Of a stretch of DNA of 33,609 nucleotides, positions 31,810 through 33,609 are shown one piece after another. Positions within the stretch are counted from its first letter, which is position 1. Each line of letters starts with the position of its first letter. The DNA lies in the NCBI GenBank assembly GCA_019750455.1, contig JAIEOM010000083.1, positions 1-33,609 of the forward strand, given 5' to 3'. The notes under the pieces were generated by a model. It was given only the letters and a program-made list of their open reading frames with translations, made no database searches and had not been told where the DNA came from. Origin of the DNA: Sphingomonadales bacterium. GTDB taxonomy: Bacteria > Pseudomonadota > Alphaproteobacteria > Sphingomonadales > Sphingomonadaceae. The translations under genes and the position numbers were made by a program.

Positions 31810-32736
31810 TCATCCCAGCTTGAGGAAAAACTCCTCGCGCTCGCTGCGCAGTTCTTCTGGTGTGAGCGCGGCCAGCGCGTCCAGCTCCGCGCGCAGTGCC
31901 AGCGCGAGGCGCTTCACCGTCTCGGCGTGATCGCGGTGTGCGCCGCCGCGCGGTTCGTAGACGATGCGGTGGATCACGCCGAGCTTCAGAAGATCGCCCG
32001 CCGTCACCCGCATGGCTTCAGCCGCCGTCGCCGCCTGCGCGCTGCTGCGCCACAGGATCGAGGCGCAGCCTTCCGGGCTGATCACCGAATAGACGGCATG
32101 TTCGAACATCAGCACGCGGTTGGCGGCTGCGAGAGCCACCGCCCCGCCCGATCCCCCCTCGCCGATGATCACGGCGACCAGCGGCACACCGAGCGCCAGA
32201 CACGCCTCGGTCGAGCGAGCGATCGCCTCGGCCTGACCGCGCGCCTCGGCATCGACACCCGGGAAGGCACCCGGCGTATCGACCAGCGTCACCACTGGCA
32301 GACCGAAGCGGTCGGCCAGCTCCATCAACCGGATCGCCTTGCGGTAGCCTTCGGGCCGCGCCATGCCGAAATTGTGGCGGAGGCGGCCCGGCGTGTCCTC
32401 GCCCTTAACATGGCCGATCACCACCACCTTGCGCCCTTCAAAACGCGCAAAGCCGCCGATGATCGCCTGATCATCGCCGAAGGTGCGGTCGCCCGCGATG
32501 GGCAGGAAGTCGGTGAACAGCCCCGCCACCAGCTTCTCGAAGCGGGGGCGCTGCGGGTGACGGGCAACCAGCGTGCGCTCCCACGGGGAGAGGCGCGCAT
32601 AGGTATCGGCAAGCAGCTTGTCCGCCCGCTCGCGCAGCATCCGCGCCTCGGCCAGCCCTTCGGGCAGAGCGGAAAGCTCCGCCACATGCCTGTCGAGCGC
32701 CTCGATCGGCTTTTCGAAGGGCAGGTACTGGATCAC
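31810..32736 (-). CDS. accA: Acetyl-CoA carboxylase carboxyltransferase subunit alpha
   Basis: YLPFEKPIEALDRHVAEL...PRFEKLVAGLFTDFLPIAGDRTFGDDQAIIGGFARFEG...GHVKGEDTPGRLRHNFGMARPEGYRKAIRLMELADRFGLPVVTLVDTPGAFPG. Confidence 0.98.
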   Translation of the reverse strand: MIQYLPFEKPIEALDRHVAELSALPEGLAEARMLRERADKLLADTYARLSPWERTLVARHPQRPRFEKLVAGLFTDFLPIAGDRTFGDDQAIIGGFARFEGRKVVVIGHVKGEDTPGRLRHNFGMARPEGYRKAIRLMELADRFGLPVVTLVDTPGAFPGVDAEARGQAEAIARSTEACLALGVPLVAVIIGEGGSGGAVALAAANRVLMFEHAVYSVISPEGCASILWRSSAQAATAAEAMRVTAGDLLKLGVIHRIVYEPRGGAHRDHAETVKRLALALRAELDALAALTPEELRSEREEFFLKLG

Positions 32737-32749
32737 CTCCCGCTCCGCG

Positions 32750-33609
32750 TCACACCGTCATCGACATGCCGCGATAGATCCGCGCGCGATACCGCGAATC
32801 CTCGGCATCGGGCAGCGGCGCGCCGACCAGCAGCACCGCGCGGGCGAAGCGGCGCACCTCTTCGAGATGCTCGTCGAGATCGCGCGGTTCTTCCGACTGC
32901 ACCCGGCGGGTGAGGTTGATCTGGTTGACCGGCACATCATGCACCAACCGCTCGTTCTCCACAGCGAGCGTCGCGGTGAAGGCGTGGAGCGTGGTCTTGA
33001 TGAAGTTCGCCAGCGCAAAGGCCGGGGACTTGTCGCCCATCGGCACGTCCGGCGAAGTCAGTACCAGCTGGCAATCGTCATAGAGCGACGCCCGGCGCGA
33101 GACGCGGAAGTGGTGGGTAAGGTTGTCGGCCACCACGGTGCGGAACTCTTCCGGGGTTAGCGGATCGTCTGTGGCGAACAGCTTGCCCGGGAGCGCGGAC
33201 ATCGGCGTCGAGAGGATCGTGGTCGGCTTGCCCCATGCCAGCAGCGCCTCGTCCATTGCGGCTTCGATGTCGGTGGTCTTGACCAGCGAGGTCAGCGCCT
33301 CGGCGGTCTCGGGCTCGAGCTGGGCCTTGATCGCCTCGAAGGCTTCGGCGGTGCGGGTGATCAGCACCACGTTCGCCGCGTGGCAATCCTCGATGAAGGC
33401 GCGTGCGGTCTCGGCGAGATAGTCGGCGAGGTGTTCGCCGATGATCCACACGGTCTTGCCGCGCATCTGGTCCAAGCGTTCCTGCTTGGGCGAGCCGAAC
33501 AGCTCGCGCTCGGTGGTCGAGCGTTCCACCGAGAGGCCGCCCGAGGGCATGAAGGTTTCGCCCGACACCGCACGGTCGGCGAGGAAGAACACCGTCGCCT
33601 GCGCCACGT
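32750..33609 (-). CDS. mcr: Malonyl-CoA reductase-type bifunctional SDR protein, C-terminal portion (gene runs off right edge)
   Basis: ATVFFLADRAVSGETFMPSGGLSVERSTTERELFG...GKTVWIIGEHLADYLAETARAF...FALANFIKTTLHAFTATLAVENERLVHDVPVNQINLTRRVQSEEPRD...YRARIYRGMSMTV, closely matching the recalled C-terminus of Chloroflexus aurantiacus Mcr. Confidence 0.82.
   Translation of the reverse strand, partial: VAQATVFFLADRAVSGETFMPSGGLSVERSTTERELFGSPKQERLDQMRGKTVWIIGEHLADYLAETARAFIEDCHAANVVLITRTAEAFEAIKAQLEPETAEALTSLVKTTDIEAAMDEALLAWGKPTTILSTPMSALPGKLFATDDPLTPEEFRTVVADNLTHHFRVSRRASLYDDCQLVLTSPDVPMGDKSPAFALANFIKTTLHAFTATLAVENERLVHDVPVNQINLTRRVQSEEPRDLDEHLEEVRRFARAVLLVGAPLPDAEDSRYRARIYRGMSMTV

Follow-up and report, generated by a model that had tools for sequence, protein, structure and literature searches.

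A malonyl-CoA reductase gene beside a second accA: a probable pcs-mcr-accA cassette in a phototrophic relative of Erythrobacter and Porphyrobacter

For aerobic anoxygenic phototrophs, neither the amount of CO2 fixed nor the route taken is settled. The window, a stretch of 33,609 bp that makes up the entire contig C271 of the Sphingomonadales genome G000, ends inside a gene that a first-pass annotation likened to the malonyl-CoA reductase (Mcr) of Chloroflexus aurantiacus, and accA follows directly. What role could the pair have, and where did this accA come from? In our reading, the fragment is the C-terminal part of an Mcr that probably belongs to a three-gene cassette, pcs-mcr-accA, of an aerobic anoxygenic phototroph near Erythrobacter/Porphyrobacter, serving a CO2 co-assimilation or anaplerotic route. 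The features of the window are listed in Table 1.

Table 1. Features at the mcr-accA end of the window
Feature	Position	Strand	Description
mcr-linked accA	31810..32736	minus	alpha subunit of the acetyl-CoA carboxylase carboxyltransferase, 308 aa; second of two accA in G000
Gap between mcr stop and accA GTG start	32737..32749		13 bp, purine-rich stretch
3' part of mcr	32750..33609	minus	C-terminal 285 of 1232 residues, plus two bases running off the contig

The open frame of the mcr fragment (32750-33607, minus strand) reaches the contig edge without a stop. In a phmmer search against the PDB, its residues 2-285 aligned to the last 284 residues of chain 6k8s_A, up to the exact C-terminus (E = 3.9e-170), and eleven more chains of malonyl-CoA-reductase type matched at E < 1e-70. 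Judged from sequence similarity, these matches are far beyond chance, and the C-terminal motifs quoted in the first-pass annotation are present as described. The rest of the gene was found on contig C87 (locus L004), which opens with the last 77 bases of the window, all identical. Joining the two contigs gives a single open frame encoding an Mcr of 1232 aa with both halves, the type of about 1200 aa that the annotation had proposed to look for upstream. Its identity is 98% to the Mcr of Erythrobacter oryzae and 94% to that of E. dokdonensis DSW-74 (locus L020), which differs by a few percent and has the same pcs-mcr-accA order. PdMCR of Porphyrobacter/Erythrobacter dokdonensis (chains 6k8s/6k8v) is a full-length orthologue, and at this level of similarity the window's Mcr counts as a typical orthologue of an enzyme already known.

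The full Mcr is colinear end to end with chains 8hi4 and 8hjw, the latter presumably an Mcr of the Roseiflexus castenholzii/C. aurantiacus type, and also matches both half-chains 6k8s and 6k8v. It has a four-SDR architecture, with SDR1-2 in the N-terminal and SDR3-4 in the C-terminal half. The Mcr of R. castenholzii and C. aurantiacus, which belong to a complete bicycle, share this architecture but are more distant from the window's enzyme. Excerpts of PMC10470521 name the working residues of R. castenholzii Mcr as T165, Y178 and K182 in SDR1, together with S731, Y743, R746, Y749, K753, R785, L795, R799 and R1164, a numbering that 8hi4 fits. All twelve are identical in the window's Mcr and 8hi4. 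The SDR1 triad here is T178, Y191 and K195, with YYARAAY as the YXXRXXY motif; the SDR3 residues, which cover the S-Y-K set and a Tyr-Arg pair, are S726, Y738, R741, Y744 and K748, followed by the malonyl-CoA residues R780, L790 and R794 and the equivalent of R1164 (extra-domain Arg, SDR4 Arg). The predicted product is thus a full-length bifunctional Mcr with intact active sites. Loss of the SDR architecture or of catalytic residues had been named beforehand as what would speak against the annotation; both are intact, and therefore this part of the sequence evidence does not contradict it.

The first-pass annotation had also proposed a search for propionyl-CoA synthase (Pcs). Its gene, pcs, is the immediate upstream neighbour of mcr, in the same orientation, at 77 of 80 related loci from named genomes; the three without a visible pcs (L036, L056, L066) start inside or right at mcr. 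In a sample of 100 genomes of the window's genus, all 45 mcr-positive genomes fall among the 46 that carry pcs. In G000 itself, Pcs residues 1-757 are encoded on C146 and residues 1703-1809 at the other end of C87, and the middle was not recovered from the G000 contigs, which fits an assembly break. Because only both ends are seen in G000, an intact pcs there is a prediction from relatives. The Pcs of the relative L011 is whole (1825 aa), comprises a ligase, a hydratase and a reductase domain, and aligns over 1805 of its 1825 residues (2896 bits) with 6eqo, which we take to be the propionyl-CoA synthase of Erythrobacter sp. NAP1. The NAP1 Pcs is the same trifunctional enzyme with an mcr partner; its ligase domain was used in the work excerpted from PMC11599936. 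Regulation of pcs through a PpsR-type site (TGT-N12-ACA) was considered and found no support, as such a site occurred upstream of pcs in one of 34 loci and is not conserved. In the 440-contig assembly G177, pcs is in two pieces and mcr was not found at the threshold used; mcr may have been lost in assembly, or the genome may truly carry pcs alone.

Photosynthesis genes, likewise proposed as a check, are present: G000 has reaction-centre genes (PF00124). In the genus sample they were found in 44 of 45 mcr-positive versus 30 of 55 mcr-negative genomes, and in a family-wide sample in 11 of 12 versus 15 of 137, or 7 of 8 versus 11 of 88 when counted by genera. With relatedness ignored, Fisher's test gave p = 3.7e-7 (genus), 6.1e-9 (family) and 1.9e-5 (by genera). 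The two mcr-positive genomes without a reaction-centre match are fragmented or incomplete (G187, 350 contigs; G022, 67% complete).

The reactions of Mcr and Pcs are established in relatives, and they suggest the following scheme. Malonyl-CoA would come from acetyl-CoA carboxylase, with the second AccA as its putative alpha and the single AccD as its putative beta subunit. Mcr would reduce malonyl-CoA in two steps, to malonate semialdehyde in its C-terminal half (SDR3-4) and on to 3-hydroxypropionate in its N-terminal half (SDR1-2). Pcs would then activate, dehydrate and reduce 3-hydroxypropionate to propionyl-CoA, which could reach succinyl-CoA through a putative carboxylase and methylmalonyl-CoA mutase. 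The mutase gene (PF01642) was found in 93 of 100 genus genomes, the G000 copy being partial at the edge of C229. On balance, two bicarbonates per acetyl-CoA would enter a C4 acid at a cost in NADPH and ATP that light can spare, and the route would be co-assimilatory and anaplerotic, with no closed autotrophic cycle. From these parts we infer catalysis in the window's strain, the direction of flux, its coupling to light and the hybrid carboxylase. The suggestion of a partial 3-hydroxypropionate module thus gained support from pcs, the reaction-centre genes and the mutase of G000, pathway use being predicted from gene content. Replacement of the glyoxylate shunt is an unsupported role, since 98 of 100 genus genomes, G000 among them, have isocitrate lyase, and the cassette is therefore not needed for that purpose.

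Earlier papers reportedly cover the mcr and pcs genes of Erythrobacter sp. NAP1. According to excerpts of PMC10674011, Porphyrobacter sp. ULC335, like NAP1, has key enzymes of the 3-hydroxypropionate bicycle for CO2 co-assimilation, so that these enzymes and their co-assimilation role are, as far as those excerpts go, already in print for this group. In contrast, no title or abstract among the open-licence papers searched fitted a sphingomonad accA linked to mcr or a pcs-mcr-accA cassette. The foreign-looking accA, with its single-clade origin described below, looks to be the novel part and worth a specialist's time.

As had been annotated, accA is on the same strand as mcr and starts 13 bp after its stop; the purine-rich stretch in the gap could be a ribosome-binding site. 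The linked accA is 65% identical to the other accA of G000 (G000:C229:12954-13892). Among the 45 mcr-positive genomes of the genus sample, 38 carry the window's mcr type, six a divergent type (~61%) and one (G181) a decayed gene. In 37 of these 38, accA lies 12-54 bp behind the mcr match. Across the 80 loci, accA is directly downstream of mcr in 58, four end too soon, and 18 have room but no accA; the 18 are the distant ones (mcr 57-66%), L061 (72%) and L066 (92%). L066 is the one clear exception of close type, its mcr being followed by 1058 bp without an accA match; its genome, taken as G161 from matching coordinates, had no accA at all. In G176 (C1:1533873-1534707) the linked accA is in two overlapping frames behind a whole mcr, possibly through a frameshift or a sequencing error.

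Two accA genes were present in 35 of the 38 genomes with the window's mcr type, the unlinked copy at 63-68% identity. Only the linked accA was seen in G163 and G214 (89% and 71% complete), and neither copy in G161. By comparison, 54 of 55 mcr-negative genus genomes had one accA and in the remaining one none was found, and all seven genomes with divergent or decayed mcr had a single, unlinked accA. The gene for the partner subunit, accD, was single in all 89 genus genomes with a match, with no second accD to pair with the second accA; the other 11 had no accD match, including G000 (none at 1e-30). With two accA and one accD, only the alpha subunit of the carboxyltransferase pair is therefore seen doubled. 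By sequence comparison, the accA adjacent to mcr is a second copy and the housekeeping gene is the one on C229. The possibility of a housekeeping accA that merely adjoins mcr was rejected for the window's genus but holds for five other genomes: in an accA search of 51 genomes/loci, five distinct genomes (G022, G030, G113, G266, G272) showed no accA other than the linked copy, and two of them, G030 and G113, are 99-100% complete. G263 and G269 appear identical to G030 and G113, with genes in the same places. The sole accA of G072 is 2 kb downstream of mcr, beyond other frames.

The linked AccA was examined for signs of function. It scored 364.9 bits against TIGR00513, the curated AccA equivalog (cut-off 319.3), keeps the GEGGSGGA and SPEGCAS active-site stretches and all 69 columns invariant across 91 aligned rows, and is separated from other AccA by one near-fixed column only. 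Median dN/dS was 0.121 for linked accA (16 sequences), 0.104 for housekeeping accA (8) and 0.086 for mcr (14); by these medians, purifying selection acts on the linked and the housekeeping copy with similar strength.

Phylogenetic analysis of AccA was performed on 91 rows, comprising 80 fetched regions, the window and 10 linked copies from loci, and including 20 of the unlinked copies of the genus and 60 of the 69 accA matches from the 51-genome/locus search. A more careful tree of 89 rows left out the long rows G273s and G283s and was built with a model simpler than that of the quick tree. In both trees, the 34 mcr-linked AccA tested formed one clade (support 97 in the quick and 99/98 in the careful tree), and unlinked AccA of Erythrobacter, Novosphingobium-type and Sphingomonas-type genomes grouped apart from it. 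An accA duplication within the genus was rejected, as grouping its linked and unlinked copies failed the AU test (p = 1.2e-6). The nearest unlinked relatives were the single AccA of the family members G134, G020, G106, G072 and G140, with moderate support for their union with the linked clade (90 quick; 94/64 careful). The simplest reading is a single capture of a native accA behind mcr, followed by spread of the cassette to lineages with an accA of their own; this suggests that pcs-mcr-accA is a cassette moved between Sphingomonadales, presumably by horizontal transfer.

The Mcr tree, built from 50 rows (the window plus 49 selected loci), contained a well-supported group of 15 rows without linked accA. 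Six genus genomes have a divergent pcs (~70%) and mcr (~61%) with no linked accA, unlike the window, which carries the accA-linked type. Since the divergent Mcr falls into a separate accA-less group, mcr appears to have entered the genus on two occasions. On this tree, linkage to accA requires at least three changes, so the cassette has also been lost or broken up in places.

Different accounts of the linked accA were weighed. One is a mobile cassette with its own AccA, exported as the only accA of an ancestral lineage and now forming in its recipients a hybrid carboxylase devoted to light-driven 3-hydroxypropionate; we hold this account at a little under even weight. The linked accA may instead be a redundant passenger, pcs-mcr having landed in front of the sole accA that a Sphingosinicellaceae-like ancestor had, so that accA moved by linkage. 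As the sole accA of five distinct genomes, two nearly or fully complete, the linked gene can act as a general AccA; the 15-row Mcr group has related cassettes without an adjoining accA, the linked protein differs at just one near-fixed column, and its gene is split in G176. The tight spacing kept in 37 of 38 genus genomes, most with a second accA, and selection close to that on the housekeeping copy argue the other way, and we regard the passenger account as tentative and rather doubtful.

Similar weighing applies to the route. Light-boosted CO2 co-assimilation via propionyl-CoA, not autotrophy, is most likely, judging from the genes present. It is unlikely that the route is mainly an electron valve in which Mcr and Pcs spend three NADPH per acetyl-CoA in the light, with carbon gain secondary. 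The close link with reaction-centre genes seen in both samples would suit a valve, as would the glyoxylate shunt enzyme already present and the higher daytime expression of the 3-hydroxypropionate bicycle enzyme genes in ULC335 given in excerpts of PMC10674011. However, with methylmalonyl-CoA mutase present the product has an evident use in assimilation, and sequence cannot separate a valve from a carbon role. A complete 3-hydroxypropionate bicycle with autotrophy is most improbable: mcr and pcs are its two hallmark enzymes, but the same excerpts report that ULC335 lacks a full carbon fixation pathway. Under the preferred co-assimilation reading, a cassette found with reaction-centre genes in nearly every sampled carrier, and bringing its own subunit for malonyl-CoA supply, offers a route that can be tested directly and a target for genetics. 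The additional AccA also serves as an experiment of nature on malonyl-CoA supply for 3-hydroxypropionate, the low yield of which in engineered strains is ascribed in excerpts of PMC10470521 partly to carboxylase/Mcr imbalance.

Individual loci showed further features. The cassette of G181 (C4; L176, 3503-10592) is decayed: pcs has lost its C-terminal part and is fused to an mcr remnant that is without the first SDR domain and has frame changes and stops further on. At L185 (12965-18092, G195:C17), on a contig that is probably the same as that of L018, a second reaction-centre cluster lies ~1.6-7 kb behind pcs-mcr-accA, with pufL, pufM and the cytochrome gene pufC on the minus strand and puhA on the plus strand; another pufLM is found elsewhere in that genome. 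A second pufLM also occurs in G166, and four matches were counted in each of G006 and G100.
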